NCBI RefSeq assembly: GCF_024267655.1 | Contig: NZ_CP100595.1 | Span: 2,294,001 to 2,358,000, forward strand | Direction of reading: 5' to 3' | DNA: 64,000 nt | From: Arcobacter roscoffensis | GTDB lineage: Bacteria; Campylobacterota; Campylobacteria; Campylobacterales; Arcobacteraceae | Shown here: in pieces, positions 10,801 to 64,000 of the stretch | How the letters are laid out: every line of letters starts with the position of its first letter | Numbering within the stretch: the first letter of the stretch is position 1 | Translations under genes and position numbers: made by a program | Notes under the pieces: generated by a model | Seen by the model: the letters and a program-made list of their open reading frames with translations, nothing else | What the model was told of the DNA's origin: nothing | Database searches by the model: none

Positions 10801-13800
10801 TTGTTCTTGAATATCATTAAATGCTGTGTCAATATCTGTTTGATTATAGTCTTCTAAAGTTGTAGAAATAGACTCACTTCCATTTGCTTGAATAGTTCCA
10901 TTTACAAACTCGAAAAACTCAACAGTAAATCCACTTGTAGTTTTAGTAATAATATCATACTCACCACTTCTAAATACTACTTTAATTTTTCCATCTTCAA
11001 TAGTTTCATACTCTAAGAACTCAGTAAAATCATCATAACCACTATCAGCTAAGATAATATCATTTTCTCTAAAGATATATGTTTCATACATATTTGAAAG
11101 TTTTTTACCAATTACATTTTCTTTATTAAATGGAGCATCTAAAACACTAATATTTACTGTGGCACGACTCTCTTCAATACCATCTGTAACTGTATACATA
11201 AATGTATCATCACCTAAGTATCCACTACTTGGTGTATATACTATTTTACCATCTACAGTTTGCGCACTACCATTCATAGGAGTAGTTAAAGAACCATCTT
11301 TTATAGTTAATGTAGTGTCTTTATCCTCATCCGAATCATTTGCTAAAACATCAATAGTTACAGCTGTATCAACTAAAGTATTTGCAGTGTCATCTACTGC
11401 TTTTGGAGCATCATTTACATTTGTAACAACAATAGTAAACTCTTCAATAGTTTTTTCACCAGATAAATCTGTTGCTGTAAGTTTCATTAGGTGTTCACCT
11501 ACATGCTCATTTAAAGCATTTACAGTTAATACACCATCTATAAAATCCATCCAAGAAGGAAGTAAAACACCATCAGCAAAAGTAACATCTAATTCTAATT
11601 TATCATCTACATCAATATCTTTAAATGTTGCACTAAAATCAAAGCTCTTAGGAGTATCTTCTAACACTTCTAATGTATCAATTGCAGTTACTAGAATAGG
11701 TGCATCATTTACATTTATAACCTCAATATCAAAACTTGCACTAACTTTTGCACCTTCTTTGTCTGTTGCCGTAACTGTAAATGTTTCAGTACCAACAGCA
11801 TCATTATCAGGAGTTCCACTAAATACTCCGTTTTCAAAGCTTATATCTTCTGGCATTGTTCCCGATGAATCAACTAAAGTATAAGTTAAAGCATCTCCAA
11901 CATCTACATCTTCAAAATACTCTTTTAAATCTAATGTAAATGGAGTATCTTCATATGCAGTTTGTTTTGGTATTGTTAAAGCTGTTGGGTCATCATTTGT
12001 ATTTTGAACAACAAGCTCAAAAGTATCACTTACTTCTTTTTCACTGTCTTTTGCAGTTACTTTTATCATATGTGTACCTACAAAATCATTTCCAAGATTT
12101 CCACTAAATACACCATCTACAAACTGAATATCAGAGGGTAAATCAGTTTCTTCTGAGTCTTTTACTAAAACTGCTGTGTAAGTTAAAGCGTCTTTATCAA
12201 TATCTTTAAAGTTTGATGTAATATCATAAGTAAACACTTCATCTTCATTTACAACTTTATTTTTTATAGTTTCCACTAATTCAGGAGCATCATTTACATT
12301 TGTAACTGTGATCGTAAATAATAAAGGATCACTTTTCGCACCATTACTATCAACTGCTAAAACTTTAATACTTAAAACTTCTCCAACTGCTTCTTGTCCA
12401 GGAGTTCCAGTTAAAATACCATTTGATAAAGTTACACCATATGGTAAAGGAGTTCCATCTTCTTGAGAAGCTATATATGTTAATGTATCTGAATCAACAT
12501 CACTAAACTTAGATTTTAAATCAAGAGATAATGTTTCACCCTGTGCAATAGTAAGATTCTCTTGTATAGTTACACTTGGCTTATCATTTACATTTACAAC
12601 TTCAATGTTAAATGAATCTAAAGATGAAGTAGCCTGTCCATCAGTAACACTAATAACAATACCTTCATGAGAACCTACATCACTATTTGTTGGTGTACCA
12701 CTTACTTTTCCAGTATCTGGATTTATTCCTAACCATGATGGATTATTTGAAATACTAAATACTAAAGTATCTCCATTTACATCATTTGCAATTGGTGTGA
12801 AGCTATATAATTCACCTTGTTTTATAGAAGTTGGAACAGTTCCACTAATAGTTGGAGCTGCTTGTGTTGTTTCAAATTCAGTTACCTCTAAAGCCATATC
12901 AAGTTCACCTGTTAAATCACCATCATTAACTGTAACTTTAAAGTTGTGAGTATTATTCCCTGATTCTGTATATTCTAAAGAAGAACTTGTAATCTCACCT
13001 GTTGAAGGATTAATACTTAAAAAACTTGGAGCATCAACTAATGCAAAAGTATAAGGAGTAGAGTCACTATTTTCAATATCAGTAACATCAACTTTTACAG
13101 ATAAAGAACTATTTTTAGTTTTACTAATACTTGTACCTGTTGGAACAGATAATACAGGAGCTAAATTATTTACTGTAATTGTAAATGGTGTAACAGTAGT
13201 TTGCCCTGCATTATTAACAGCTGCAATTTCAATATTTGAAGTTGTCCCTTCATGGGACTTTTGACTTGGTTTTACTGTAATTACTCCGGTAACACTATTT
13301 AAGCTTGCAAATGATGGTAAAGAGTTATTTAAAACTATCCATGAACTTACATCTGTCCCAGATAGTGTTATTGTTGAAGTTTGACCATTTGTTACAGAGT
13401 CATTCCCCATTATACTAAGTTCACTTGGTGTAGGTTTTATAGTAAGAGAAATAAATTTAGTTACAAAATCTCCTACAGTTATTTCACTTTCTACTTTTGT
13501 ATCATTAGAAGGACTAGTTTCATGTCTTACTTTTAATGTTTGACCATTAGTAATTGTTCCACTTGTAGTCCAACCAGTGTTATTAATGTTAATCTCACCA
13601 TCTGTAACAGATACATTTGTATCTGTATTTATACCTTTGATAGTAACAGCTTCTGACTCAATAACTCTACCAGGTTCAACACCTTCATTTATAGAAAAAG
13701 AGAAACTATTAGGTTTAGTATCATCCGCTGCTTTTGTATAAGAAACTAAATTAGATGTAATTCCACCTATATTAACAGTAGTAACAGTTTTTGTTAAGTT

Positions 13801-15768
13801 TTCAGAAGATGAGGTATGTTTTACAACAACAGCATCTCCATTTTGAACAGTTCCATTTTCACTTGTGAAATCTCCACTATTAATACTATATTGACCATTT
13901 TGCACACTAATTGGCGTTGTAGCATTAATACCAGCAACATTTATTGTTGTAGTAATTTCATCAGAAAGTGCAACTTTTGTATTTGCTGAATTATCAATAG
14001 TAAATTCATTTGGTACTGTATCTTCAGCTAATGCTTCACTATAAGAGTTAAACTCAGCTACTTTTGTACCTATTCTTAAAGAAGAAGTTGTTTTTGTACT
14101 GTTTGAAGAAGATGAGGTATGTCTTACATATACAACATCATTTAAAGATACTTTACCATCTTCATCTGTCCATGTTCCAAACTCACCTATTTTATATTCA
14201 CCATTTTCAACAGAGACGTCAACCTCACCTGTAATACTTAATACAGTTACAGGAGAAAATGTATCTACAGTTGAACTTAGTGAAGTATCATAAATAGTAT
14301 CAAAACTAAATGCTGTAGGCTCTTTATCTTGTGCCACAGTAAATGATTTAAAGTATGTTTCTACTTGATTGTCTCCTAAACCAAATGTCACAGTTGTTTT
14401 GGTTCTAGTAGAGTATTCACTTGATGTAGTATGTCTTACTTTTAAAGTATCTCCATTATTTATAGTTCCTGCTGCACTTGTATAGGCACCATTATTTATA
14501 CTATATTCACTACCATCTGAGATAAATATATCAGTTGCAGTATTTATACCTTCAATTGTAATAGTATTACTTTCTACTTGTGTGTTTAAGGCTTGTGCAG
14601 TAGAAGAAGTAAAATCAAACTCTTTTATTTTAGTATCAGCTACAAAAGGATCTGATTCTGTAGTTACATTATATTTAAATTTTGTACCACCAATATCAAG
14701 TGTTGCTATAACTTTTGTATCATAAGAAGGTGAAGATTGAAGTTTTAATTTTAATGTATCACCATTTTTAATAGTTCCAGAATTAGTAAATGCTTCACCG
14801 TTTATACTAAACTCTGCCGTCGTTGAAGAAGAAATAGAAATTTGTGCTTCGCTATTTCCATAAATACCCTCTACTATAATCTCTTCTGATTCATAAGATG
14901 TTCCTAAAGAAGCTTCTAGAATATCATTAAAGTCAATAGAGTTATCTAAAGAAATAGTCCCAGCTAATAAATCATCACTACTTGGAACATTGTCAAGTTC
15001 AATAACACTCTCCATAGTTGCAGCAACTTCAGATAAATCAACATCTTCTTCTTTTTGCTTTAACTCTTGAAAAACAACTTCAGCTTCATCATCAACTTCA
15101 CCATCTGTTAAGTCAGTGGCTAAATTTTCTAGTGTTTTTTCTGGATCTTCTGTAGCAGTTAATGCAGCAGAGATTTTAAGAAGCTGAGTATTGGCAGCCT
15201 GATTTGTTCCCTCACTACCATCAGTTAAATCTAAATCTTCTAAATCAGTATTTTCATCAAGCTTTAAATTAAATGTCTCTTGAACAACATTTTTTGCAGT
15301 TGCAGTTGCATCAGTGATGGATACATTATTTGCCATTTGTTGTTTAATACTTTTTGCAGCGATATGTGTAAGAATATTAATATTTACAGTAGGAGTTGTA
15401 CCTTCAACTACATTTGTTACAGCAGTTAAAAGTCCACCTGCTGTATATTCACCAGTATTTTCATTTAAATATTCACCTTCAACTTTAAATTCTGTTGGTC
15501 CACTCCATGGAATAGAAGAAAAACTAAACTTACCTAAAGAGTTTGTAGTTGTAGTAATAGCTGAGATAGTATTATCAGCATTACCTTGACTATCAAGCTT
15601 TGTTGCAGTCACGGTCTGTCCCTCTTTAAAAGGTCCTTTGTGACCTCCACCTCCTGCACCAGTATTTCCTGATGAAGAAGTAGAAGTACCACCTCCTCCA
15701 CCACAACCAACTAGCATACCAGCAACAACTGTAGATAATACAACATTTTTTATATTAGAATTCCCCAT
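7825..15768 (-). CDS. Giant repeat-rich lipoprotein, putative surface adhesin
   Basis: 2647 residues. The signal peptide ends in a lipobox (GMLVGC, Cys22) followed by a Gly/Ser-rich tether (GGGGGTSTSSSGNTGAGGGG), so it is predicted to be lipid-anchored. About residues 45-130 resemble a carboxypeptidase-regulatory-like fold, and about 130-280 are helical and acidic. Five repeats near 100 residues follow (about 285-795), each with 'NGDTLKVRHTSS....T.T..T..IG'. Eight putative-Ig/cadherin-like repeats come next (about 795-1545), ending with 'F.I.V.NVNDAP' linkers. The last 1100 residues are unique, with several Cys and Trp. A good AAGGAG site precedes the ATG. Calcium binding by the cadherin-like repeats is likely by family. 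There is no type I secretion signal, so export is by Sec/Lol. The ligand is unknown. Confidence 0.8.
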   Translation of the reverse strand: MGNSNIKNVVLSTVVAGMLVGCGGGGGTSTSSSGNTGAGGGGHKGPFKEGQTVTATKLDSQGNADNTISAITTTTNSLGKFSFSSIPWSGPTEFKVEGEYLNENTGEYTAGGLLTAVTNVVEGTTPTVNINILTHIAAKSIKQQMANNVSITDATATAKNVVQETFNLKLDENTDLEDLDLTDGSEGTNQAANTQLLKISAALTATEDPEKTLENLATDLTDGEVDDEAEVVFQELKQKEEDVDLSEVAATMESVIELDNVPSSDDLLAGTISLDNSIDFNDILEASLGTSYESEEIIVEGIYGNSEAQISISSSTTAEFSINGEAFTNSGTIKNGDTLKLKLQSSPSYDTKVIATLDIGGTKFKYNVTTESDPFVADTKIKEFDFTSSTAQALNTQVESNTITIEGINTATDIFISDGSEYSINNGAYTSAAGTINNGDTLKVRHTTSSEYSTRTKTTVTFGLGDNQVETYFKSFTVAQDKEPTAFSFDTIYDTSLSSTVDTFSPVTVLSITGEVDVSVENGEYKIGEFGTWTDEDGKVSLNDVVYVRHTSSSSNSTKTTSSLRIGTKVAEFNSYSEALAEDTVPNEFTIDNSANTKVALSDEITTTINVAGINATTPISVQNGQYSINSGDFTSENGTVQNGDAVVVKHTSSSENLTKTVTTVNIGGITSNLVSYTKAADDTKPNSFSFSINEGVEPGRVIESEAVTIKGINTDTNVSVTDGEININNTGWTTSGTITNGQTLKVRHETSPSNDTKVESEITVGDFVTKFISLTIKPTPSELSIMGNDSVTNGQTSTITLSGTDVSSWIVLNNSLPSFASLNSVTGVITVKPSQKSHEGTTSNIEIAAVNNAGQTTVTPFTITVNNLAPVLSVPTGTSISKTKNSSLSVKVDVTDIENSDSTPYTFALVDAPSFLSINPSTGEITSSSLEYTESGNNTHNFKVTVNDGDLTGELDMALEVTEFETTQAAPTISGTVPTSIKQGELYSFTPIANDVNGDTLVFSISNNPSWLGINPDTGKVSGTPTNSDVGSHEGIVISVTDGQATSSLDSFNIEVVNVNDKPSVTIQENLTIAQGETLSLDLKSKFSDVDSDTLTYIASQEDGTPLPYGVTLSNGILTGTPGQEAVGEVLSIKVLAVDSNGAKSDPLLFTITVTNVNDAPELVETIKNKVVNEDEVFTYDITSNFKDIDKDALTYTAVLVKDSEETDLPSDIQFVDGVFSGNLGNDFVGTHMIKVTAKDSEKEVSDTFELVVQNTNDDPTALTIPKQTAYEDTPFTLDLKEYFEDVDVGDALTYTLVDSSGTMPEDISFENGVFSGTPDNDAVGTETFTVTATDKEGAKVSASFDIEVINVNDAPILVTAIDTLEVLEDTPKSFDFSATFKDIDVDDKLELDVTFADGVLLPSWMDFIDGVLTVNALNEHVGEHLMKLTATDLSGEKTIEEFTIVVTNVNDAPKAVDDTANTLVDTAVTIDVLANDSDEDKDTTLTIKDGSLTTPMNGSAQTVDGKIVYTPSSGYLGDDTFMYTVTDGIEESRATVNISVLDAPFNKENVIGKKLSNMYETYIFRENDIILADSGYDDFTEFLEYETIEDGKIKVVFRSGEYDIITKTTSGFTVEFFEFVNGTIQANGSESISTTLEDYNQTDIDTAFNDIQEQYFEAFDRTWVEKRYSSKYNISGNSAIKNLTSNTIHIEAFNADKGSESRAEARTYLDEPKTIIKADLEILEVNAYSQAQVTSVMHDVNTAGDTIYVTTGIKAGHMYYYVARYDVNGDNLEEEYANEMFVDVDSTVSDGTFFYSVKQEIDGNTIKFNVAKINKSTGTVIEEYTEKSVQISDTALDLEFDRTQVRAKSNIETTETQEIDVLDITKVDLLGFEARAGEPLSNAVQEAIAVIENTDIETDNIDTKIDEAEAILSSETSADATLAKTMIRVAELANDEDLASLLTFDVPSDLSTTNYLNQYIKSTVLDTINIDENLADSISAYNLSNFSTNMLHNVATELKQMSDDIGLLFPDSNPTAAYDHDGVSMNYEQSLAFRATLLAVAFKLDNLAAYRFGSDADYKTREHSDGYGGTFEYNDIAIDPAAVLNTGEFFKLVDGARIDTAKTYAIEALTLVSKLPIGFEDEMTQEDLDEAKKIKDALDGTASSYIMDVKNDDEIKSIEVDLSKLFSSAGALDISDFGSNWANTCGGNDTLISTDMAKIYNDLRCEYSDMYYYHSYTASQEPQTMPTAENSKIDDVVLKITKPDNSTLSGQALIDFLVDDDTSTGTTFTFNKSMIEDKTFNFVDSYGEASLTFKSSGDYEEMFDDTAGGDTKGSCSGSWSVDSTNPNKVNITATCSEEGVTGTSNSSFYILFEEEIKNGMKITVFDEETSQEKVETVTSVTNALSQVDTLTFAELTANTFLSVGDDWYDSMSYTDNGSTGVLVGTEYNQNDSGSYVTDNDTFTLNVTPSTSNAQVSSYTEAATGEAGTLTLVSTELITGYTDVYKTTANIEITTPANSIEWDSWDWTDPSYYDGTSQIAIIDLATLTAGFTYTNSSMTTYSEKYGDIMLTSDNKVVKGIDTASSSDPHPMYIRTTDEVGTWTSDSVNNQLVLTLDNEIVYLKVVNDAGTYMIEQANKLLTGFIFTEKFISSDTTTGLNTYISDNF
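11132..13425 (-). repeat. Eight Ig/cadherin-like protein repeats in the giant lipoprotein
   Basis: Coding repeats of about 90-100 codons. Most end in the F.I.V.NVND.P linker, and many share 'P..I.F..G..SG.....vG.....v.atD..g'. The DNA has diverged between copies, so these are old duplications. The last copy carries the 'DVLANDSDED' motif of cadherin-like tandem-95 modules. Confidence 0.8.
13383..14913 (-). repeat. Five ~100-residue 'NGDTLKVRH' repeats in the giant lipoprotein
   Basis: Five tandem units sharing 'V.I.GI......vsdGeysIn.g.fts..GTi.NGDtl.VrHtSS....T...tv.iG', separated by a 'dt.p..F.F' linker. Similar units occur in many secreted proteins of marine bacteria. A short hydrophobic core with a conserved His/Arg pair is visible in copies 2-5; copy 1 is the most diverged. 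Confidence 0.75.
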
Positions 15769-34196: not shown

Positions 34197-35534
34197 CTAC
34201 CTTTCATGCATTGCATTTTCCTTTGTTTTCAAAATTGGCTTTAAAATATAGTCTAATATTGTCTTTTTTCCTGTTATAATATCTACGCTTGTGATCATTC
34301 CTGGTATTATTGGAAACCTTTCTTTATTCTTTTCTAAATAGTTTTTATTTGTTTTTATTGTTACCTTATAATAGCTTTTTTGATTTTTATCTTTTTCATC
34401 TATAATACTATCTGCTGATATTTCTGTAATACTTCCTTCTAAAGCTCCATATATTGAAAAATCATAAGCTGTTATTTTTACAATTGCTTTTTGCTTTGGG
34501 TTGATAAAAGCAATATCTTTAGGATCAATTTTTGCTTCAATTAATAAGATTTCACTTTGTGGTACTATTTCTATTAAATCCATTCCTGATTTAATTACTC
34601 CACCTACAGTATTTACATTTATTTGTTTTACTATTCCATTTACTGGTGAATGCAATATTGTTTTATCTACCTTATCTTTTTGCGCTACAATTTTTGATTC
34701 ATATTTTTTTATTTCAGTATTTATCTTTTGAAGTTCATTTGATGCTTGGGCTTTAAATATTTTTGTTTTTTCAATTATTCTATTTTTCGCTTCTTGTATT
34801 GCATATTTTGCTTTTGGTATTTGAATATATGTAGTTTGTAAATCACCTTCAAGTTTTGCTAACTCTTTTTTTATTTTTAATAAATCTACTCTTGATCGTG
34901 AACCTTTATTTACCATTTTATTTATAGTTCTATATTCTTCTTTTACATATTTTAATCTTTTTTTCAATTGAACGCTGTCATTTTGCAATTCTTTTAACTC
35001 TTGTTCTTTTTGTTTTAATTGTATTTTAAATATATTAGATGTACTAATTAGTTCTTCTACTCTTGATAAAAAAAGTTTTCTATCATTTTGAATAAATTCT
35101 TCTACATTAGTTCTCAATTCTTTTGAGTATTCTAGTTTTTTAATATCTTTTGATATATCAACACTAGATTCAGCTTCCAATCTTTGCTGAGTAACTAAAA
35201 GATGATAGTATGTTTGTTTATTCTCTTCTAGTGATGCTTGAAACCTAGTAGTATCAATTTTCATCAAGGCTTGACCTTTTTTTACAATTGAACCTTCTTT
35301 TACTAGAATTTCTGAAATTAATCCACCATCTAAGCTTTGTATTTTCTTTATTTTCTCAGAAGGTATAACCTTTCCCTCACCTCTTGTTAATTCATCAACT
35401 TCTGCTAAATATGCCCACACAAAGGCTCCTACAAAAAAACAAACAATTATAAAGAAAAAAAGAATAATTTTTGGATTTAGTTCAGCATTTTTTTGAGAGT
35501 GTAATGTGTCTACAAAATTTATATCTTTTTGCAT
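34197..35534 (-). CDS. Type I secretion membrane-fusion protein (HlyD/LapC family)
   Basis: 445 residues: a short cytoplasmic tail, one membrane helix (about residues 24-45), then ADELTRGEG-type lipoyl/barrel sequence (EVDELTRGEGKVIPSEKI). A long periplasmic coiled coil follows (about 95-290, rich in Lys/Glu/Gln), and a C-terminal beta-barrel part contains HSPVNGIVKQINVNTVGG. This is the adaptor linking the ABC exporter to the TolC-like channel in type I systems. It begins 1 base after the exporter gene ends. Transcription runs on toward the promoter of rRNA operon B; no strong terminator is visible in the 60 bases between. Confidence 0.92.
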   Translation of the reverse strand: MQKDINFVDTLHSQKNAELNPKIILFFFIIVCFFVGAFVWAYLAEVDELTRGEGKVIPSEKIKKIQSLDGGLISEILVKEGSIVKKGQALMKIDTTRFQASLEENKQTYYHLLVTQQRLEAESSVDISKDIKKLEYSKELRTNVEEFIQNDRKLFLSRVEELISTSNIFKIQLKQKEQELKELQNDSVQLKKRLKYVKEEYRTINKMVNKGSRSRVDLLKIKKELAKLEGDLQTTYIQIPKAKYAIQEAKNRIIEKTKIFKAQASNELQKINTEIKKYESKIVAQKDKVDKTILHSPVNGIVKQINVNTVGGVIKSGMDLIEIVPQSEILLIEAKIDPKDIAFINPKQKAIVKITAYDFSIYGALEGSITEISADSIIDEKDKNQKSYYKVTIKTNKNYLEKNKERFPIIPGMITSVDIITGKKTILDYILKPILKTKENAMHER

Positions 35535-37727
35535 TTAAATCCTTTTAATTCTTGCAGTCTTTTTTACTTGTGTTTTTCCAAAAGAAGATATGATTTTTTC
35601 TTTTGGTCCATCTGCCACTACTTTTCCATCTTCTATAACTATCAATCTATCAACTAATGATAATAAAGAAGGTTTATGAGTAATTAGTAATAGCGTTTTA
35701 TCTTTTATAATTGTCTCTAAACTTTTTTTGAATTTTGTTTCAGATAATTCGTCCATCATATTTGTTGGTTCATCTAATAGTAATATGTTTGGATTTGAAA
35801 GAATGGCTCTTGCAAGAGTAACTGATTGTCTTTCTCCACCGGATAGACCTTCACCTCTCTCCCCTACTATCAAATCATAACCTGCTTCATGTTTACCTAA
35901 AAAATCATGTACACCTGCTATTTTTGAAGCTTTTAGTATTTGCTCGTCACTTGCATATTGTTCTGCTATTGATATATTATCTTTTATACTTCCCATAAAT
36001 AAAAAAGGTTCTTGAGGAACATAACCAATTGATCTTCTTAAATCAACTGGATCTATTTGTCTTATATCAGTGTTATTTACTATAACTGAACCCTTATCTG
36101 GTTCATATAGATTTAATAAAAGCTTTGCAAACGTAGATTTACCAGAACCAATTTTTCCTATGATCCCTACTTTCTCACCCTCTTTGATTGTAAGATTTAT
36201 ATTTTTTAGCACATTAAATTTTTGATCTTTATATGAAAACTCAATATCTTTAAATATGATATCTCCTTTTAAATCAGGTCTACTTAAAAAGTTTTTATTT
36301 GGATCTCTTTCAACAGGCATTTTCATAGTTTCATCAATATTTTCAAGAGACAGCATGGTTCTATCAAGCCTTATAATCATACCAACAATTTGAGACACAG
36401 GTCCAATAACTCTACTATTCAACATCATAGCAGCTATAATTGCTCCCATTGTTATTGTTCCTTCACTTGCTAGAATTACACCAAACGCTACTATTAATAC
36501 TCCTGATAGTTGTGAAATAAAACCTACAAAATAAGTAACTATTTGTGATAAATAGTGAGATTTGTTTCCATAATAAGAAGTTTGAGAGATAGATCTTTCC
36601 CAATGAGTTCTCATTCTATTTAATGCTCTAACACTTTTAATGATTTCTAAACCTGTTACTGTTTCAGTTAAAACAGTCTGTTTTATTTGCTCTTCTTTTG
36701 CAGAATTTAAAATATTTTTTTTAATAGGTCTTTGCATAAACCAAGAAAATGTTATTGCTATTAACATAGTTGCTAAACTAACATATGCTAAATCTCCTCC
36801 TATATAAAAGATAACTCCTATAAAAAGTAAAACAAAAGGTAAATCAACAAAAGCAGTAATAGTTGCTGTAGTGAAAAATTCTCTAACACTTTCAAAGGAT
36901 TGTAGTCTACTTACAAACATACCAGTAGAACTTGGTTTTGAATCCAGTTTAATATTTAACAGTTGATCAAATATCTTACTTGACATACGAATATCTGCTC
37001 TTTTTCCTGCTTGTTCGATAAAGTAGGCTCTAATTAATTTTAGTATTAAATCAAAAAACAATACAAAAACTATACCTACAAGTAAAACCCATAAAGTATC
37101 TATTGATTTATTTGGTAATACTCTATCATATACATTCATAGTAAATAAAGGAACAAATATAACAAAAATATTTATTAGAATTGCAGCTATAATTACTAAT
37201 TTATAAATAGATATATTTTTTTTCATTGTTCTAAAAAACCAGCGTTTATTATCTTTTATATCTATATCTTTTTGTACTCTATTTTCAAAATTATAAGCTG
37301 GTTTTACTATCAGAAGGTTATTTGTATAAATCTGTTGAAGACTCTCAATAGAAATATGGGTTTCACCTTCATTTACATGTGGCATTATTAAAGTTACTAT
37401 TTTATCTTTTTTATCTATATTTAAAACTACACAAGCTTTATTATCTTCTAAAATCATTACTGCAGGTAAAGCTTTATTGTCAATTTCTTCTATTTTTCTA
37501 GAAACTGCTTTTGTTATAAGTCCGATTTTTTTTGCAGCAGTTTTAAACATAGATGGAGTCATCAAAGAATCATGAATAGCAAGACCTGCTATCAATGACT
37601 CTTTTGAAGATGCTCTTTTATGGAATTTAGAAAGAAAAAATAAAGACTCTAAAAGTGTATCAATCTTTTTAGAGTCATCTTTTATTGAATCGAAATCTTC
37701 ACTGAAATTTATATTTTTTTCACTCAA
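35535..37727 (-). CDS. Type I secretion ABC exporter (LapB/RtxB family)
   Basis: 730 residues. The N-terminal C39-peptidase-like domain (about 20-150) lacks the catalytic Cys, as in exporters that bind unprocessed substrates. A six-helix membrane domain (about 170-460) is followed by an ATPase domain (about 490-720) with Walker A GKIGSGKST, signature LSGGERQS, Walker B ILLLDEPTNMMD and an H-loop (LITHKPS). It belongs to the family that exports giant RTX or LapA-type adhesins. It lies 8 bases after the TolC-like gene and is joined to the HlyD gene. The likely substrate in this window is the adhesin at 57663-64000. Confidence 0.93.
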   Translation of the reverse strand: MSEKNINFSEDFDSIKDDSKKIDTLLESLFFLSKFHKRASSKESLIAGLAIHDSLMTPSMFKTAAKKIGLITKAVSRKIEEIDNKALPAVMILEDNKACVVLNIDKKDKIVTLIMPHVNEGETHISIESLQQIYTNNLLIVKPAYNFENRVQKDIDIKDNKRWFFRTMKKNISIYKLVIIAAILINIFVIFVPLFTMNVYDRVLPNKSIDTLWVLLVGIVFVLFFDLILKLIRAYFIEQAGKRADIRMSSKIFDQLLNIKLDSKPSSTGMFVSRLQSFESVREFFTTATITAFVDLPFVLLFIGVIFYIGGDLAYVSLATMLIAITFSWFMQRPIKKNILNSAKEEQIKQTVLTETVTGLEIIKSVRALNRMRTHWERSISQTSYYGNKSHYLSQIVTYFVGFISQLSGVLIVAFGVILASEGTITMGAIIAAMMLNSRVIGPVSQIVGMIIRLDRTMLSLENIDETMKMPVERDPNKNFLSRPDLKGDIIFKDIEFSYKDQKFNVLKNINLTIKEGEKVGIIGKIGSGKSTFAKLLLNLYEPDKGSVIVNNTDIRQIDPVDLRRSIGYVPQEPFLFMGSIKDNISIAEQYASDEQILKASKIAGVHDFLGKHEAGYDLIVGERGEGLSGGERQSVTLARAILSNPNILLLDEPTNMMDELSETKFKKSLETIIKDKTLLLITHKPSLLSLVDRLIVIEDGKVVADGPKEKIISSFGKTQVKKTARIKRI

Positions 37728-37735
37728 TTGTTTAC

Positions 37736-39391
37736 CTATTTAGATTTTTTTATAAAATATGAATTTGGAAACTTATAATCTAAACTCTCTTTTAATGAAA
37801 CAGCGTTCTGTTTTCCTTTTATATTATAAGCAGCTAAAGTATATGAGGCTTTTGAATTTAATATAACTTTTAACTTTTGATTGTTTTTTAAATCGGTTTT
37901 AGTATTATCTAAAACATCTTGTGCTTTTTTCATAGTTGAATATGTATTTAAAAATAATGCATATTCATTTTCAACTGAAGTTTTTGGTGTAGATATTTGT
38001 GTCTCTAAAGTAGAAGACTCCTCTAAATTTAACTCTTCTTCCATATCTTTTAACTCATCTTTTTTAGGTTCTTCTTTAAAAAAGTCGTCTGCATCACATA
38101 CTTGTCTTTGTGAATCAGATATAGTGTTTTGTAATGTTGACATTAATTTTAAGATTTTATAATATGATTGATACATATTAAATTGAGTGTTAATCAGTGA
38201 TATTTTAGAATTGTATAAGTCTGCTTCAACATTTAAAACATCAATAAAACTTCTTGTTCCTGAATCAAATTGATCTTTATAGATTTCTATGATTTGCTTA
38301 TTTTCTTCAATAAACTGTTTTAATTCAATTATTTGACTTTTTGAAGTTTGATAAGTATTAAAAGATGAAGTTAGTTGATCGATAATGTCTTTTGTCACGA
38401 CATCAAGCTTAGCTTTAGATTCTTTAAGAAATAGCCTCTCTCTTTGAGATGCCTTCTCATCAGATAAACCATTAAAAATATTATATGTTAACTCTATTTT
38501 TCCTGTGTATCTTTTTGTTTCAGTTTCATCAGTGATAAGTTCATCATCATGAATAGCTTGAAGTTTAAATTTTAAAGTAGGTAAAAAGTTTGAATCTGTT
38601 TGAGCTAATTTTTCTCTTTGTTCTTTTATATTTTCTATCTGCTCTTTGATTTTATAATTTGAACTTAATGCAATAGTTTTTAAATCTTTTAAAGATGATG
38701 GAACTTTAGATTCATCAATACTTGGTCTACAAATTTCACCTAAAACTTTCATACCAACATTTTTATCAAATGAACTTTTTGCTAGATTGTAGTTATTTAT
38801 TTCATCAAATAATTTATTTTTTGCATTATGAATTTTTGCTTTTGTTTGAACCTTATCTAAAATAGTACCGTTTATATCTTCTGTTTCTCTTGCAATTTGA
38901 AGATAATTATTATGAACTTTTATATTATCTTCAGAGATATTTATTCTTTCTTGCGACTTTACCATATTTAAATAAGAAATAATTCCATCTAATATAATAT
39001 TTTCTATATCATCAGAGTTTTTATATTTATTAGACATATAAGTATATTTTGCACTCTCAATTTTACTTGAAGATAATCCTCCATCATAAAGAAGTTGTTC
39101 TAAATCAAGTCTAATATTATTTCCTGTTCTTGTTTCATTCGTATTTAATGTAGGAGACTTTTCTTTCTCTTTTATTTTTTCTAATGATGCTGTTAAATCT
39201 ACCTTTGGATAGTAAGCTGTTTTTTCTTCATCAATATAATTTTTAAATGCATTATTATTTAGTGATTTTGAATATATATCTTGATTACTTTTTAAAGTAT
39301 GCGAAACTACATCCTTTAAAGAAGTAGCTTCTCCAACACTAAAAAGCACCATTAATACAGGGATACCATAGATAAATCTATTGTTTTTCAT
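37736..39391 (-). CDS. TolC-family outer-membrane channel (LapE-like) with C-terminal extension
   Basis: 551 residues. A signal peptide (cleavage near GEA) is followed by the two OEP repeats of TolC (about 25-220 and 230-430), with the YDGGLSSSKIESA and YNIFNGLSDEKAS segments typical of LapE/AggA-type proteins. After about residue 440 comes an acidic linker, then a 75-residue C-terminal domain (KNNQKLKVILNSKASYTLAAYN). This may be a SPOR-like peptidoglycan-binding domain, as seen on some LapE proteins. It is the first gene of the type I operon, under the promoter at 39418-39446, with an AAAGGA ribosome site. Confidence 0.9.
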   Translation of the reverse strand: MKNNRFIYGIPVLMVLFSVGEATSLKDVVSHTLKSNQDIYSKSLNNNAFKNYIDEEKTAYYPKVDLTASLEKIKEKEKSPTLNTNETRTGNNIRLDLEQLLYDGGLSSSKIESAKYTYMSNKYKNSDDIENIILDGIISYLNMVKSQERINISEDNIKVHNNYLQIARETEDINGTILDKVQTKAKIHNAKNKLFDEINNYNLAKSSFDKNVGMKVLGEICRPSIDESKVPSSLKDLKTIALSSNYKIKEQIENIKEQREKLAQTDSNFLPTLKFKLQAIHDDELITDETETKRYTGKIELTYNIFNGLSDEKASQRERLFLKESKAKLDVVTKDIIDQLTSSFNTYQTSKSQIIELKQFIEENKQIIEIYKDQFDSGTRSFIDVLNVEADLYNSKISLINTQFNMYQSYYKILKLMSTLQNTISDSQRQVCDADDFFKEEPKKDELKDMEEELNLEESSTLETQISTPKTSVENEYALFLNTYSTMKKAQDVLDNTKTDLKNNQKLKVILNSKASYTLAAYNIKGKQNAVSLKESLDYKFPNSYFIKKSK

Positions 39392-56876: not shown

Positions 56877-57617
56877 TTATAAATATATATTTTTTATCTC
56901 ATTTTTTTCTTCTATTTTTCTAAAATTTTTACTATTCATACTCTCTTTTAAAGCATCTACATAGTTTGGTCTATGAGTGTCACTTCCTACAAAATCTACC
57001 AAACCATTGTTTATTAGATATTCAACAGCTTTTTTTACATTTTTACCATAGAAGTTATTAGTTGAGTTTACATTTATTTGAAAGCTTAAACCTGCTTCTT
57101 TTATTTGATTATATTTCTCTAAGTTCTGAGAGAAGTATGTATATCTTTCAGGATGTGCAAGTACAGGTTTATACCCTGCTTTTAAAAGTTCGTATATAGT
57201 TTGTTCTATTCCAAATACAGGAGTAGTATACGATAACTCAAAAAGAACATAGTTATCTCCAAATGTTAAAAGCTCTTTATTTTTAATAAGCTCAAAAAAG
57301 TGTTCATCATAGTAATACTCACTTGCTACTTCTAAACATATATCAATATTTTGTTTTGAAACTTCTTCTTTTAAAAGATCAAATTTTCTTAAAATATCAT
57401 CTTTTGTGTTAGGAAATCTATGAGACATAGTATGTGGTGTAGTAATCAGTTTTTTGAAACCTAAGTTTTTAAGTTCTTTAATCATTTCTATACTTTGGGT
57501 CATTGATTTTGAACCGTCATCTATTTCAGGAATTAAATGAGAGTGTAAATCAGTTGTGTAAAAATCAGGGAGTTTATTATCAGTTTTTTTAAAGTTTTTA
57601 AATATTTTTGAAAGCAA
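56877..57617 (-). CDS. PHP-type protein-tyrosine phosphatase (CpsB/YwqE family)
   Basis: 246 residues with the PHP metal-binding motifs in order: DLHSHLIPEIDDGS, TTPHTMSHRF, EVASEYYYD, LAHPERY and VGSDTHRPN. This family (CpsB, YwqE, Wzb analogues) dephosphorylates the Tyr-rich tail of BY-kinases such as the adjacent Wzc, and so controls polymer length and export. The likely start is TTG at 57617, 8 bases after an AGGAAG site. It points the other way from the polysaccharide operon, with its own transcription. Confidence 0.9.
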   Translation of the reverse strand: MLSKIFKNFKKTDNKLPDFYTTDLHSHLIPEIDDGSKSMTQSIEMIKELKNLGFKKLITTPHTMSHRFPNTKDDILRKFDLLKEEVSKQNIDICLEVASEYYYDEHFFELIKNKELLTFGDNYVLFELSYTTPVFGIEQTIYELLKAGYKPVLAHPERYTYFSQNLEKYNQIKEAGLSFQINVNSTNNFYGKNVKKAVEYLINNGLVDFVGSDTHRPNYVDALKESMNSKNFRKIEEKNEIKNIYL

Positions 57618-57662: not shown

Positions 57663-60600
57663 TTATATTTCTACGGTTACGCTATCTTCAATAAGAAGTT
57701 TTAGTACCTCATCTTGTGTATTTGTTGTTGTATATACTTGGAAGCCATCTGCATCTTTGTATGTTGAGCCATCTGTATTTAGTTTTGGCTCCCAGTTTTG
57801 TGAAGTTTCAAGTTTAATACTATCAGCTTCATCCCCCAGAATTCTTAAAGAATTATCCTCGTCTGTCAATGCTACAAAATCTTCAAGTGTAAAATTACTT
57901 AGTATATGTTCTCCACTATCTAAATCTAATTCATCTAAACCAGTAGTATTACTAAGTAGTGTACTCATATCAATTTCATTGTCAGTTTCACTTGGAGTAT
58001 ATGTATCTGTTAAATCAATTTCAACTGTTACTTTTTTTGGCTCACTCTCAACTCCTTGTTTATCTACAACTTTATAAGCAAATTCTACTTCAATATCATA
58101 TGAAGGACTTATCACTTCAAAATCTTCATTTGTTACACTATAAGAACCATCCTCTTGAATATTAACTATGGTATTACTAAGAGTTAAGGTATCAGTAATA
58201 TCAAGCCCATTTTCATCATATACAGTTGTAACTATAGAATCAGATACTTCTTTAAAAGTTAAAGTAGCAATATCTTGTAAGTCTTCATCCATACTTATTC
58301 TATAGTATAAATCTTGAACCATTTTATCGGCAATTTCATCTCTTGTCTCATCAAACAATAAGCCTCTATCTAATCCTAATTGAGCAAAAATATTTTCAAG
58401 TGTAATAGATTTGATTTCATCTACACTTAGATTTACATCTTGAGTTAACTCAGCAACAATAGTTTGTATAACTTCATCACCTAGCTTATCGTAGTTTGGA
58501 GTATCACTAAGCTTTAAAGTTCCACCATCATCAACTACTACAAAATCAAAGTTATATGATACAGTTTCCCCATTAGAATCTTCACCATTTACAGTTACAG
58601 TGATTTCTTCACCTAAAGAGTATGTTGCAACATTTAAAGTAACTATACCTTTAGTTAAATTTACACTTAATCCACCATTATTTGGCTCAAGTGTAACAAC
58701 TGGATTAGAAATAGTCTCTATACTCATAGTTACAACTTCTGATTCTTTTCCAAAATTGTTTTTAAGTGCAGAAATTAAAGCATCCATTTCTGTAGAAATT
58801 TCAGTTATGATTGCATCACTAAGAGCATTAACAATTGCATCTTTTAACTCTACATCTGTAATATCAATTAAGTTATCAATTACAGAAGTTAATATTCCAT
58901 TTTCCTGTGCAAAAATAGTATCTAAAATATCTTTGAAAGTATCAGATATAGCATCTGGATTATTTACTAAGTCACTTGGACTTAATGAGCTAATAGATTC
59001 TGTAATTTTTATTCTTGTATCATTTAAAATTTCATTATAATCAATATTATTAATATCTATACCTAAATCAACTAATAATTGATTTATATCTAAATTTGCA
59101 ATAATTGCATCTGGGTCTAATGATAATGATGTTTCTAAATTATCTAAAGCATTTGTAATATCACTTGGTAAATTTTCTATAATAATTTGATTTAAGTCTA
59201 AGCCCAATAAATCAGTCGTCTCAATCAATAAAATTTTAGATTCTTCAGTTGCATCAAATGTTAAAGGATTATTTTTAGCATTTAATAGCAAATTGTTAAT
59301 TTTATTTAAAATTGTTTGATACTCAGACGGTGAGACATCACCTGTCCAATTAGTAGTATCTAATGTTAAATCTAAAGAATCAACGATTAATGTATTTGCT
59401 AAGTCCATAGGGAAATCTGATATAGAAGCTGAAAGAGCATTTGCCTCAGTTTCTATTGAAGTACGAATAAATAGTAAATCATCTAAAGTCACAGTTGCAT
59501 TGTAAAGAGTAAATAAATCTTCTACAAATGCTTCTAAAACTAGTGTTTCATCAGATGGATTAGCTTCAATTTGAACAACTAATATTGTAATTAGACTTCT
59601 TAAAGCTGGTGTATCTTCTACTCCAATTTGAGATTCAATAGCTTCAACCATTGCAGTAACATAATAAATAGATGGATTTGATTGAATAGAAGCTATATCA
59701 GTCTGAATAGAAACTAAATCACTAGGAGTTACTGATGCATTAAATGTTATAAATAAACCATTTGCAAAACTATCTAAAATAGTATCTTGAGAAGAAGGAT
59801 TAGATTCTATATCACTTAATAGTTGAATCACATCAGAAGTTAATTGCGCTCTTTGTGTTGTATCTCCAATTTGTGTTTCAATAGAATTTACTATTTGAGA
59901 CACTAACTCATTTTGAACATTATTTGTATATGTTATGAGTAAAGGAGAAACAGCAATTTGAATATTTGTTGCTTCGATAGAAATACTAGGACCGTATATA
60001 GAGATAAGACCACTAACTAAATTAGAGTCTGCATCTGTATTTTCGGCTTCTAGTTCAGATACAAATTGAGTGACAACATCTATTAAAGATATTGAAGGAT
60101 TCAATACTGGATAAAGGTTTAATTGAGTACTTATTGCTAATTCAATATTAGAAATTAAATCTGTTCTTAAAGTCTCTACATTGGTATGAATAGAAATTCC
60201 AGAGATAATAGTTGGAATAGATGTAGATATAACTGATAAATCTATAGGTGTTACAGAAGACTCAAAAATAGTAAATAATGAGTTAGTAAAAGTTGTTTCA
60301 TTTATATTTGAAGCAATTAAATTTTCAACTAAAGTTTCTAACTCTCTTGTATGAGTTGTATCGTCAATTTGTGTCTCAATTACATCAACTATTGTATTAA
60401 CTATAATACTTGTATTTGTTTTGATATCAACTATCGCTTTTTTGATATCTGTTATATCAGAATAATTTATTGGTGATTCATAAATATCAAATAATGCCAA
60501 ACCTAAAGTCTCAGCTGCAGTTTCTGCACCTGATTGGTCTGCATTTAGAAGTTTTGAAACAAAGTCATTAATCAAATTATCTAGTTGTAAATCTTTAGAA

Positions 60601-63600
60601 CTTCCAGCTGTTAATTCACCAAATTTAGTTTCTATTATATTTTTTATAGTTGCTGGAAAACTATTTATCTTATCTTGTAAAGAATCAACCTTATTATTTA
60701 TTGGATCTGTTAAACTAGTAAGTGCAGGTAGAATATCATCAGTTGTTAAACCAAGTGAAGCAAAAGCATTTGGCAAAACTCTTGCTTGAATTTCAGCTAT
60801 TTTTTCAGAACTTACATCTATATTTACATCATCAGCAAGACTAGTTAATAGTGCATTTTGAAGTTCTGTTTGGTCTATAATTTCTGTTAATCCATTTGAT
60901 GTATCTATATTATCAAGTACTGTTTTAAACATATCAAGATTGTATGCACCTGGAAGTGTCCCATAATATGTACCAGTACTACTTTCAGTATTTACAGTAT
61001 CAGCAATAGCAACAGGAGTATCATTTGTCCCTAATATCTTTACTAATTCTATAGAGTTTACAGTATCAATACCATCCGCGACGCTATAATCAAATGATAG
61101 ATCAAGGGAATCTGTCTCATTCATCATATTGAAGATAGGAGAAATTATTTGATAATTAACAGTGCCAGTTATTTCGTCATCAGCTAAGATTAGATCACTT
61201 GTAACTACATTTAGTAATCCAGCAGTTTCTAATAATTTTACTGCAGATGCTGGTAATGTAACTGATTTAGATTCAGTTGTTGACTCGACATCTCCTGATA
61301 AAATATCTGTTAATAATGATTGAATAGATGCTCTATCTATAGATGAAATTCCACTTATTTGCTCAAATACAGAGATTAATAATTCACTTGTTGTTGTAAG
61401 CGTTACTGAAAACTGACCTAAAGATACTGTTACATCCTCAATATTATCTAAATCTGTTATCTCCATACTATTTGAATAAACAGCATTTTCAAAAGGTAAA
61501 TTAAATGCCATTCCTAAGTTATCTAAAATCACTAACTTAAGGTTTTCTTGTGTGATTGCTGTTTCAAAAGGATTTGACGGTAAGCCTGAAATTTCAGCAT
61601 TGATTGTAACTGTTCCAGCAACTGATTTATCTACAACAAATGAAACATTTGAAGCTGGAATATTTAATAATTCAATTAAAGTATCATTTACTATTCCTGA
61701 AACATCAAATTGTTCAAATAACTTTACTATTGTAGAGTTTGAAGTTGATATAGACAAAGAAATTATACCATCCGTATTAGTAACTACTGTTTCTAATATA
61801 CCTTGAGTTGCATCGTTTAAATCAGATTCTAAAACTATAATTGGATCTTTTGCAGTGATTTGAGGAGCGTCATTTGTACCTTTTACTGTTAATGTTACTG
61901 TTGTATCATTTGTTAATTCTCCATCACTTACTGTATATGTAAATACTACTGTTGCCTCTTTATCTTTTTCTAAGTAGTCAAAATCACGTCCAGGAATAAA
62001 CTCTAATTTATCACCTGTACTATTTAATTGAACACTTCCTTTTAAAGGCTGAGTAAAACTACTTATTGATAAAGGAGAGTTTTCCACATCACTATCATTT
62101 GATAAAACATCAATTTCTAAACTTTGTACATTTTCGCTTATTTCAAACCCACTGTCATTATTTGCAATAGGTACATCATTTACAGCTGTTACATTTACAT
62201 TAAATGTTTTACTTGCAGTTGTTGTTCCATCATTTACATCTAAAGTTACAACAGCCATACCATTAAAGTTAGCATTTGGAGTAAATTCAATATTACCATC
62301 ATTATTTATAATAGCTGCTCCATTTGTTGTACTAACTGTTTTTGTTAAATCATCACCATCAATATCACTTACATCAATTGTAACTATTTTTGTATTATCT
62401 TCGGCTACTGTCTGAGTTGATATATTTTCAATTACTGGTGCATCATTTACACTATTTACTGTAACTTCTACTTCTTTTACTACTTTTGCTCCATCATCAT
62501 CTGTTGTTGTTAAAGTTATTGTATCTCTTCCATTAAAGTTCTCATTTGGTGAGTATGTTATTTCACTTCCATTTATTACTACGCTTCCATTATTTGCAAT
62601 TGCTGTCGTTGTTACTGTTCCATCTAAATCACTTGCTGTAAATGTGATTGTCTTACTACTATCTTCATCTAGTGTTGTAGCACTTACAACTTCTAATGTT
62701 GGTGTATCAATTTCACCTGTTAATTTTATAGTAAATTTGTTTGAGCTTTGTTCACCTAGTTCATCTTCAACATCTATATTAATACTAATTATTTCTTCTT
62801 CACCATTTTTCAAATAATCATAATCTGATGCATCAAATTCATAATTACCATCTTGGTCTATTGAAAAACCATCTACTATATCAATAGTACTAAATACAAG
62901 TTTTTCACCTGAAGGTAAATCAATATCATTTGCAATAACTGTTCCTCTTAAAATCTGATCTTCTTGAACACTAATTGTCTGTGATTCAATTATTGGTGCA
63001 TCATTTACACTATTTACTGTAACTGCTACTTCTTTTACTACTTTAGCTCCATCATCATCAATTGTTGTTATTGTTAGTGTATCACTTCCATTGAAGTTTG
63101 CATTTGGTGTATATGTTATCTCATTTCCATTTACTACAACTGTTCCATTATTTGCTACTGCTGTTGTATTTACTGTTCCATCTATATCATTTGCTGCAAA
63201 TGTGATTGTCTTACTTCCATCTTCTTCTACTTCAAATGTAGAAACTGTTTCCAATTTAGGTTCATCATTTATATCACTTACAATTACATTAATACTTTTA
63301 GTAGTTATTGCCTTTCCATCACTTACATTTAATACAATTGTTGTTTGACCATTAAAATTTTCATTAGGAGTAAATATAATTTCATTTCCATTTAGTGAAA
63401 TAGTTCCATCAGAAGAACTTGCATTTACGATTAATGTATCATTGTCTCTATCTGTTGCATTAAATGTAAATATCAATGTTTTATCTTCATCTACTATCTG
63501 AGCATCTATATCATCAATTTTAGGAGCAAAGTTTCGTCTAGCTAAAGCATCTTGTGCATTTTGATTACCAAGGGCATTTGAAGGTAGGTTATTATCTCCC

Positions 63601-64000
63601 CCAATTCTAGCATTGTCATAATTTCTATTTTCTATACCATTTTCAGAAGCATTATTAAAACCTGGATTATTATATGTATCACCAGAACGAGCTTCTTCTG
63701 CTCCCGCAGCAGAAGCTTGAAGTGCAGTTGCTAAATCACTAATACTAGCAATAACTTCATCTTCTTCATTATCTTTAGTTAATATTAAATCTACTAGAGT
63801 AGTTCCATCATTTTGTGCTAATAATGTAGCCATATCTTTTAATATTAACTGAAAAGAATTTCCTTCTTTATCAATAAACTCAAATGCCAAATCTTCTTCA
63901 ACTAACTGAGAACTATACTTGATATCTTCTGATAATTTAATCTTAATAGTTTTATTTAACTCAAGATTATCAAGAATTAAAATATTTTGGTTCTCAACAA
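57663..64000 (-). CDS. LapA-like giant type I-secreted adhesin (partial, N terminus outside)
   Basis: The frame is open to the right edge. At least 2111 residues are seen; a TTG at 63890 is an internal codon, not the start. The first 110 resemble a LapA-type retention module (LNKTIKIKLSEDIKYSSQLVEED, FEFIDKEGNSFQLILKDM), ending in ASAAGAEEA, a likely BTLCP-protease (LapG) site. Five or six cadherin-like/tandem-95 and VCBS-like repeats follow (62000-63530). Next come a unique part (about 60950-61860), a helical segment of about 730 residues (58745-60940) with six degenerate repeats, and a beta-rich part. The C terminus (LRILGDEADSIKLETSQNW ... VYTTTNTQ) has the look of type I secretion signals. 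No RTX nonapeptides (GGxGxDxUx) were seen. Confidence 0.82.
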   Translation of the reverse strand, partial: VENQNILILDNLELNKTIKIKLSEDIKYSSQLVEEDLAFEFIDKEGNSFQLILKDMATLLAQNDGTTLVDLILTKDNEEDEVIASISDLATALQASAAGAEEARSGDTYNNPGFNNASENGIENRNYDNARIGGDNNLPSNALGNQNAQDALARRNFAPKIDDIDAQIVDEDKTLIFTFNATDRDNDTLIVNASSSDGTISLNGNEIIFTPNENFNGQTTIVLNVSDGKAITTKSINVIVSDINDEPKLETVSTFEVEEDGSKTITFAANDIDGTVNTTAVANNGTVVVNGNEITYTPNANFNGSDTLTITTIDDDGAKVVKEVAVTVNSVNDAPIIESQTISVQEDQILRGTVIANDIDLPSGEKLVFSTIDIVDGFSIDQDGNYEFDASDYDYLKNGEEEIISINIDVEDELGEQSSNKFTIKLTGEIDTPTLEVVSATTLDEDSSKTITFTASDLDGTVTTTAIANNGSVVINGSEITYSPNENFNGRDTITLTTTDDDGAKVVKEVEVTVNSVNDAPVIENISTQTVAEDNTKIVTIDVSDIDGDDLTKTVSTTNGAAIINNDGNIEFTPNANFNGMAVVTLDVNDGTTTASKTFNVNVTAVNDVPIANNDSGFEISENVQSLEIDVLSNDSDVENSPLSISSFTQPLKGSVQLNSTGDKLEFIPGRDFDYLEKDKEATVVFTYTVSDGELTNDTTVTLTVKGTNDAPQITAKDPIIVLESDLNDATQGILETVVTNTDGIISLSISTSNSTIVKLFEQFDVSGIVNDTLIELLNIPASNVSFVVDKSVAGTVTINAEISGLPSNPFETAITQENLKLVILDNLGMAFNLPFENAVYSNSMEITDLDNIEDVTVSLGQFSVTLTTTSELLISVFEQISGISSIDRASIQSLLTDILSGDVESTTESKSVTLPASAVKLLETAGLLNVVTSDLILADDEITGTVNYQIISPIFNMMNETDSLDLSFDYSVADGIDTVNSIELVKILGTNDTPVAIADTVNTESSTGTYYGTLPGAYNLDMFKTVLDNIDTSNGLTEIIDQTELQNALLTSLADDVNIDVSSEKIAEIQARVLPNAFASLGLTTDDILPALTSLTDPINNKVDSLQDKINSFPATIKNIIETKFGELTAGSSKDLQLDNLINDFVSKLLNADQSGAETAAETLGLALFDIYESPINYSDITDIKKAIVDIKTNTSIIVNTIVDVIETQIDDTTHTRELETLVENLIASNINETTFTNSLFTIFESSVTPIDLSVISTSIPTIISGISIHTNVETLRTDLISNIELAISTQLNLYPVLNPSISLIDVVTQFVSELEAENTDADSNLVSGLISIYGPSISIEATNIQIAVSPLLITYTNNVQNELVSQIVNSIETQIGDTTQRAQLTSDVIQLLSDIESNPSSQDTILDSFANGLFITFNASVTPSDLVSIQTDIASIQSNPSIYYVTAMVEAIESQIGVEDTPALRSLITILVVQIEANPSDETLVLEAFVEDLFTLYNATVTLDDLLFIRTSIETEANALSASISDFPMDLANTLIVDSLDLTLDTTNWTGDVSPSEYQTILNKINNLLLNAKNNPLTFDATEESKILLIETTDLLGLDLNQIIIENLPSDITNALDNLETSLSLDPDAIIANLDINQLLVDLGIDINNIDYNEILNDTRIKITESISSLSPSDLVNNPDAISDTFKDILDTIFAQENGILTSVIDNLIDITDVELKDAIVNALSDAIITEISTEMDALISALKNNFGKESEVVTMSIETISNPVVTLEPNNGGLSVNLTKGIVTLNVATYSLGEEITVTVNGEDSNGETVSYNFDFVVVDDGGTLKLSDTPNYDKLGDEVIQTIVAELTQDVNLSVDEIKSITLENIFAQLGLDRGLLFDETRDEIADKMVQDLYYRISMDEDLQDIATLTFKEVSDSIVTTVYDENGLDITDTLTLSNTIVNIQEDGSYSVTNEDFEVISPSYDIEVEFAYKVVDKQGVESEPKKVTVEIDLTDTYTPSETDNEIDMSTLLSNTTGLDELDLDSGEHILSNFTLEDFVALTDEDNSLRILGDEADSIKLETSQNWEPKLNTDGSTYKDADGFQVYTTTNTQDEVLKLLIEDSVTVEI
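59376..60635 (-). repeat. Five tandem helical protein repeats (78-88 residues) plus a sixth below 59375
   Basis: Units begin at IETKFG (60635), IETQIDD (60380), IELAIST (60146), IETQIGD (59882), IESQIGV (59639) and LDLTLDT (59375). Spacings are 85, 78, 88, 81 and 88 codons. Each shows 'IE.qi......l..l...l...i........ll......lf.ify...vt..dl..i...i..i', so the fold looks alpha-helical. The DNA has diverged, so the duplication is old. Confidence 0.7.
62437..63240 (-). repeat. Two close copies of a cadherin-like module in the adhesin
   Basis: About 250 bases at 62437-62690 resemble 62998-63240 at an offset of about 560, with long stretches identical (for example around 'tcatttacactatttactgt'). 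They encode tandem-95-type units with 'DEDGSKTITFAANDIDGTV' and similar. The similarity at DNA level shows a recent duplication or gene conversion. Confidence 0.75.

Follow-up and report, generated by a model that had tools for sequence, protein, structure and literature searches.

What a long helical stretch is doing within a surface adhesin built largely of beta domains is the question raised by a gene at the end of a 64,000-nucleotide stretch of Arcobacter roscoffensis DNA (contig NZ_CP100595.1, positions 2,294,001 to 2,358,000; here called the window). The gene lies at 57663 to 64000 on the minus strand, as do all its features given below, and its start codon falls outside the window. The full open reading frame (ORF) of 2124 amino acids was read from a fetched locus (L002:664-7038), and it is open throughout in a source genome consisting of one contig of 3,154,193 bases. 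We label genomes G (the own genome being G000) and fetched loci L; P0001 is the window's adhesin protein, and a residue number in the full protein equals the P0001 number plus 13. In order, the protein consists of an N-terminal part of ∼110 residues with SAAG at its end, a chain of beta domains, a region X, a domain Y that carries a large insert, and a C-terminal region. The helical segment is probably a large all-alpha module, built of repeats and seated in a split VCBS-like domain near the distal end of an adhesin that is exported by a type I secretion system (T1SS) in the manner of LapA.

A helical segment of about 730 residues had been proposed by a sequence-only reading of the window, and this proposal was borne out: the segment spans 58752 to 60947 (732 residues), contains 25.8% Ile/Leu and 2.2% Gly, and shows helical amphipathic (hydrophobic) periodicity with a z of 4.7 against 50 shuffles. 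By the same test, the beta extender part favored strand periodicity (z 2.1) and not helical periodicity. An AlphaFold2 model of the whole domain, made from a three-row alignment, consists of helices and short turns over residues 27 to 758 of 1009; with a mean pLDDT of 45 and a pTM of 0.22, it was used for secondary structure only. Modeling of one repeat unit (unit 4, see below) with its flanks, from 12 rows of homologous units, reached a mean pLDDT of 79.3 and a pTM of 0.56, with helices at model residues 2 to 16, 22 to 38, 40 to 57 and 64 to 79, followed by the first helices of the next unit. The unit is thus predicted to be a four-helix repeat of ∼81 residues. Three motifs earlier noted as common to the units can, by our reading of this model, be placed on it: IETQI in helix A, LF.I[FY] in helix C and [SA].VT..DL at the start of helix D. 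Ordinary beta modules, such as beta sandwiches, were rejected for this segment by the Pfam scan, by both models and by the periodicity.

The repeats themselves were best seen by profile searches. A profile built from six units of a related adhesin in genome G123 alone matched four units here, at 60665-60414, 60404-60192, 59912-59676 and 59657-59418, scoring 32.6, 57.5, 77.5 and 46.3 bits, while the best of 200 segment shuffles reached 5.4 bits. Conversely, a profile of these four units recovered the six array units of G123 (28.9 to 66.7 bits) and one outlying G123 stretch at 10.6 bits, compared to 8.9 bits for the best of 200 shuffles. Two weak unit-like stretches in genome G060 scored 16.1 and 13.3 bits, the best of 200 shuffles reaching 11.8. 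In pairwise alignments, segment-versus-segment Z values reached up to 13.9. Unit 1 lies at 60408 to 60665, unit 2 at 60180 to 60410, unit 3 at 59919 to 60176, unit 4 at 59676 to 59912 and unit 5 at 59415 to 59666. Unit 2 is of a short type, lacking ∼11 residues between helices B and C. Unit 3 is degenerate: it was found by pairwise alignment and only with a profile that contained it, was not matched by the G123 profile, and has as its best partner the degenerate unit of G123 (Z 5.8).

Six regularly spaced units had been expected. Four are secure, the one placed at 60146 is the degenerate unit, and the sixth, placed at 59375, is not a unit, having no profile match and a pairwise Z of at most 3.5 against the other eight segments. 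Because successive units are 78 to 88 residues apart, the repeats become visible when gaps are allowed; in ungapped autocorrelation the best offset only reaches the 95% level of global shuffles and stays below that of local ones. Such a borderline signal, together with the biased composition of the segment (Ile, Leu, Thr, Ser, Asp and Asn), is what one might see if the segment had drifted into low complexity or had arisen by faulty annotation or assembly, with no folded module at all. We regard this as extremely improbable, however: the frame is open in a 3.15-Mb genome that consists of a single contig, homologous inserts are present in other genera, the units score far above shuffles, and the unit model has a pLDDT of 79. 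Chance or composition bias as the source of the repeats was similarly ruled out by the shuffles, with the ungapped autocorrelation still borderline.

What the sequence-only reading had missed is the setting of the helices: as judged by comparison of the flanks, they have been inserted into a single loop of a beta domain. The first strands of this domain Y (NDTPVAI...TYYGTLPG) are encoded at 60948 to 61025 and its remaining strands (DEDLQDIATL...DGSYSVTN...VEFAYKV), placed by sequence comparison and the model, at 57999 to 58289. Between them lies an insert of 886 residues (58290 to 60947), which comprises the all-helical part, a small beta stretch at 58509 to 58730 that is gapped in the four other inserts described below, and a last helical stretch after it. 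Five Y copies in three Arcobacteraceae genomes are opened at the identical spot, after [YF].G.LPG and before D[EA]D..D, with inserts of 886 residues in the own genome, 567 and 388 in G060, and 418 and 964 in G123, all five mutually related by alignment. The unit array is clear in only two of the five (own genome and G123). In six distant genomes of the class the same loop has 2, 2, 2, 2, 19 and 21 residues, the text pattern used for this search permitting up to 40. When the five flank pairs were joined without the insert and compared with the six natural short-loop domains, they aligned nearly end to end (116 columns, probability 99.4, E 1.2e-21).

The flank alignment and the loop series together lead us to conclude that a single beta domain, to which both flanks belong at the level of sequence, has received the helical part as an insertion; insertion and helicity are, in our judgment, very probable. 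That the split sandwich also closes in space is quite probable. The loops of 19 and 21 residues look like a single helix and may plausibly represent the seed of the insert. A set of 21 loci (L028 to L048, from 14 genomes, 160 residues each) was inspected by eye, and 19 of them have a beta stretch without a large insert, only 6 of these 19 being recognizable as Y domains. In the other two (L035 and L036, from two Arcobacteraceae), a helical-looking insert of ∼200 residues was read in an X-type domain, just ahead of the C-terminal end.

The segment had been placed in the middle of the protein, but it is actually near the C-terminal, distal end, the insert stopping 208 residues short of the C-terminus; the corresponding distances are 202 residues for the second G060 copy and 642 for the second G123 copy. 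This arrangement resembles the split-domain scheme described for RTX adhesins, whose ligand-binding modules emerge close to the distal tip from Ig-like domains that they split (PMC12077191, PMC10865825). In one crystal structure, the module exits the Ig-like domain after the first strand and returns to complete it (PMC12077191, PMC10865825). Named split-domain inserts in the consulted portions of these sources are lectin-like CBM/sugar-binding modules, an RTX beta-roll, PA14 and a peptide-binding domain, none of them all-helical, and a vWFA domain emerges from a beta-roll in the same adhesin group (PMC12077191, PMC10865825). As described there, AhLap, FrhA and MpIBP share with our adhesin a module that leaves and re-enters an Ig-like domain, the distal C-terminal place, type I secretion, a retention domain and control by LapG. 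What sets our case apart is an insert that is helical throughout, is composed of tandem four-helix units and measures 388 to 964 residues across the copies, in a protein without an RTX Pfam match (none among the six Pfam families found in P0001 at E up to 1 in a sequence scan). In place and topology, the helical insert fits this scheme. On that basis we interpret it as a projecting module whose most likely function is binding, a role that we hold with slightly better than even confidence.

Several observations weigh against this interpretation. The whole-domain model shows no closed split sandwich, and in it the first strands of Y have a pLDDT of about 25 and the remaining strands one of 63 to 82 from model residue 931 onward and 33 to 55 earlier. 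The joined frames were expected to match the NCBIfam VCBS model (TIGR01965), and none of the five did, while two of three natural short-loop Y relatives score, weakly, above its cut-off of 15.5 bits; for the intact Y domain, the sole NCBIfam match was chance-like (18 bits against a cut-off of 119). Two of the inserts, the first in G060 and the first in G123, end 1896 and 2893 residues from the C-terminus and thus not at the tip. Finally, binding by the arm is a role that we infer, and arrays of repeats may be mere spacers.

The last point corresponds to an alternative in which the helical units serve as a stalk. They would make the tip longer or stiffer without binding anything, and their copy number would set the length. 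This alternative would agree with the different unit numbers in orthologues (5 here and 7 in the G123 array) and with the conserved polar positions of the unit, which by our reading of the model look mostly like helix N-caps and hence structural. But both ends of the insert re-enter the same domain, so the arm would protrude sideways with little gain along the fiber axis; the role of a stalk is already filled by the chain of beta extenders, and none of the other Y copies has a simple array as its insert. We therefore consider a pure spacer unlikely. Less likely still is some other activity, with the helical part acting as an enzyme, as a platform on which another secreted partner docks, or as an interface for self-association between cells. 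The insert, at 886 residues, is big for a head that does no more than bind, and proteins are often docked by helical repeats. On the other hand, no catalytic family in Pfam or NCBIfam matched the adhesin above cut-off, with weak sub-threshold matches only, and the orthologous loci, by reading, carry no extra partner gene but only a regulator, CpsB-like, Wzc-like and housekeeping genes.

A projected binding arm, which remains our preferred interpretation, would be of a kind without a known match, consistent with the suggestion of the sequence-only reading that no named adhesin module has this look. No Pfam or NCBIfam model matched the helical part above cut-off, no Pfam family did so anywhere in P0001 beyond residue 704, and the unit profile found nothing better than E 0.13 among PDB sequences. 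None of the 53 Foldseek matches of the unit model in the PDB reached E ≤ 0.001, in a fold search that covered this model and PDB entries only; a homologue among predicted cellular proteins may exist. With VIA, the unit model gave a best Z of 8.4 and a root mean square deviation of 2.6 over 80 residues, which is inside VIA's range for unrelated helical models. Below threshold, single units (12 scanned) showed weak Pfam matches to TAFH (3/12, best E 7.2e-5), VbhA (2/12, 8.1e-5) and T4_CASP (1/12, 6.1e-4), and on P0001 TAFH scored 12.9 bits against a cut-off of 27. Among the papers listed in searches of the open-licence PMC literature, none announces this locus or adhesins of this type with helical inserts.

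Helical domains in fibrillar adhesins are, as such, already known from SiiE and BibA-like proteins. SiiE of Salmonella is, like our protein, a giant beta-domain adhesin of a T1SS with a helical element; there, however, the element is an N-terminal coiled coil for retention, and the distal insertion has 60 residues and is supposedly unstructured, according to the consulted part of PMC6272769. One fibrillar-adhesin cluster model resembles the N-terminal helical domain of BibA from group B Streptococcus, but it is located at the N-terminus of that model, with no split beta domain mentioned in the part of the source used, and is compared here by description only (PMC9210967). The closest domain families are VCBS, tandem-95 and Big_9: the extender domains of the adhesin are members, and short-loop relatives of Y match VCBS weakly, whereas Y itself is unmatched, either with its insert or with its flanks joined. 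The architecture of a split domain is known and its all-helical content had no match above cut-off, and the helix-rich insert may represent a type of arm not yet described, serving to stick or to reach.

Secretion and surface control of the adhesin appear to follow LapA of Pseudomonas fluorescens, as had been supposed. A library scan identified T1SS genes at 34197 to 39391 on the minus strand, encoding an outer membrane channel, an ABC transporter with a C39-like domain and an HlyD-type adaptor. LapG-type protease (PF06035) is encoded at two places in the genome, with LapD (PF16448) adjoining one of them. The full protein has SAAG at residue 109 (63702 to 63713), a candidate LapG site by its sequence motif, and [SA]AAG is found at residues 109 to 114 in five of five locus orthologues tested, two fragmentary orthologues having been left out of the count. 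In the part of PMC6890996 consulted, LapG in Vibrio cleaves AAAG and PAAG peptides. The likeness to LapA is in these respects good (T1SS with a C39-like transporter, a di-alanine motif near residue 110, LapG and LapD), but the N-terminal part did not match the LapA retention model NF033682, a comparison against the model and not LapA itself; nor did the rest of the full adhesin, and in the own genome only another ORF matched, below the cut-off. The C-terminal region (57663 to 57998), found by sequence search to be common to other Arcobacteraceae adhesins, is taken as the type I secretion end. Overall, these sequence features suggest that the adhesin is probably type I secreted, LapG controlled and located at the surface.

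Between the N-terminal part and region X, the extender chain (61887 to 63551) matches Big_9, Cadherin_5, Cadherin_4 and tandem-95 beta domains in Pfam and NCBIfam. Region X (61026 to 61886) reads as one or more beta domains with a smaller helical-looking insert, without any match in the Pfam scan; it seems to be a second split beta domain. The order of X then Y also occurs in distant relatives (e.g., L028 to L033). After Y, G060 and G123 have a module of the pattern ..GGTDISTGL.F.G...AP.GS...PLTTL.. with a helical-looking tail (L023:6457-7269, L024:11334-12197), look-alikes of which are found in L103 and L104; the two copies scanned had no Pfam match above cut-off.

The last 1409 residues of the adhesin match 22 of 104 family genomes, 18 of these only within the last 195 residues. 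Related Y inserts occur in G060 and G123, with units in G123; these full relatives have 5135 and 4065 amino acids, respectively, and together hold four further Y copies (contig G123:C61 is named Arcobacter sp. isolate CPC16). A nine-unit profile searched against the 104 family genomes clearly matched G000 and G123, and four other genomes at E 0.005 to 0.009 were read as chance, three of their four matches having an internal stop. Among 397 genomes of the class, the beta frame was found in 14 others, which include the six short-loop genomes described above. The five-row alignment matched 15 of the 397, all but the own genome only at positions 613 to 710 of 712, which belong to the beta frame, and the 12-unit profile matched the own genome alone (1/397); both searches are weak as negatives, since G060 and G123 were seemingly not drawn and the inserts diverge fast. 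The segment alone matched only the own genome in a set of 60 relatives that did not include G060 and G123. In the own genome, its single match was the gene itself, and a plasmid search gave no match.

The adhesin apparently occupies a fixed locus, shared with other genera, at which its tip varies. In G060 and G123, the gene adjoining the start of the adhesin is of the same kind as here, by eye a response regulator; a CpsB-like gene lies downstream in G060, and the further upstream genes of G123 read the same as here. Other adhesin genes of the family likewise end or start beside a response-regulator-like gene (L009, L014). Through the neighboring regulator we found further orthologues in G004 (3518 amino acids) and G098 (1054 amino acids, with a masked run), which by reading resemble our adhesin in both terminal parts and have CpsB-like and Wzc-like neighbors as well, but lack a giant insert. 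Two orthologues without the insert at the same locus are as expected of an exchangeable tip module, and locus comparison thus suggests that the module comes and goes at a fixed place. A fragment at a contig end in G015 reads as having a helical-looking insert and is followed by a CpsB-like gene, the G022 orthologue is truncated by a contig end, and G108 has neighbors that look like type I secretion genes, with no adhesin within the fetched stretch. In G004, four near-identical X-type copies, each with a helical-looking stretch of ∼95 residues, were seen without a Y insert (L103:9181-19737). In G060, there are about two dozen near-identical cadherin-like repeats by length estimate (L023:1849-17256), which implies that extender length is very different between orthologues.

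Taken together, we propose that the adhesin would be exported through the T1SS encoded at 39391-34197 and anchored in the envelope by its N-terminal part until LapG cuts at SAAG. The cadherin/Ig-like extender chain would carry the tip off the cell. There the chain would exit Y after the first strands, form the 886-residue helical arm with its five tandem four-helix units, and re-enter to finish Y. The arm would most likely bind a surface, a neighboring cell or a polysaccharide encoded nearby, with the number of units tuning reach or valency. The immediate downstream neighbor is a CpsB/CapC-like gene (56877 to 57617, minus strand, library match), and by reading, look-alikes stand beside the adhesin in G060, G015, G004 and G098. 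The polysaccharide-type genes nearby (Wzc-, CpsB- and glycosyltransferase-like) are a possible but unproven link to the arm's ligand.

Elsewhere in the window, a protein of 2647 amino acids is encoded at 7825 to 15768. It contains He_PIG and Big_9 domains and starts like a lipoprotein (VVAGMLVGCGGG); it is another large surface protein which, judged by this N-terminus, appears not to be a type I substrate. A protein encoded at 18195 to 19238 matches PGBA_N, the N-terminal family of the plasminogen-binding protein PgbA.

For the Arcobacteraceae, we tentatively suggest, at somewhat less than even confidence, that their adhesins have evolved tip modules of a new class, in which tandem four-helix units make up an all-alpha arm for binding within the loop of a split domain (2 to about 960 residues). 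The arm would be gained or lost as a block between orthologues and adjusted in copy number, and would amount to an alpha-solenoid-like head on a T1SS-exported beta fiber. The split-domain rule is used for finding ligand-binding heads in giant adhesins, and an all-helical head of nearly 900 residues, if true, would widen both the cargo of such fibers and what a T1SS can export and have fold outside the cell. The lengths of this loop in one homologous domain (2, roughly 20, roughly 400 and at most 964 residues) form a natural record of how such a head may have originated. With helical-looking inserts, by reading, also in X domains of related adhesins, such insertion may be a recurrent habit of the family.

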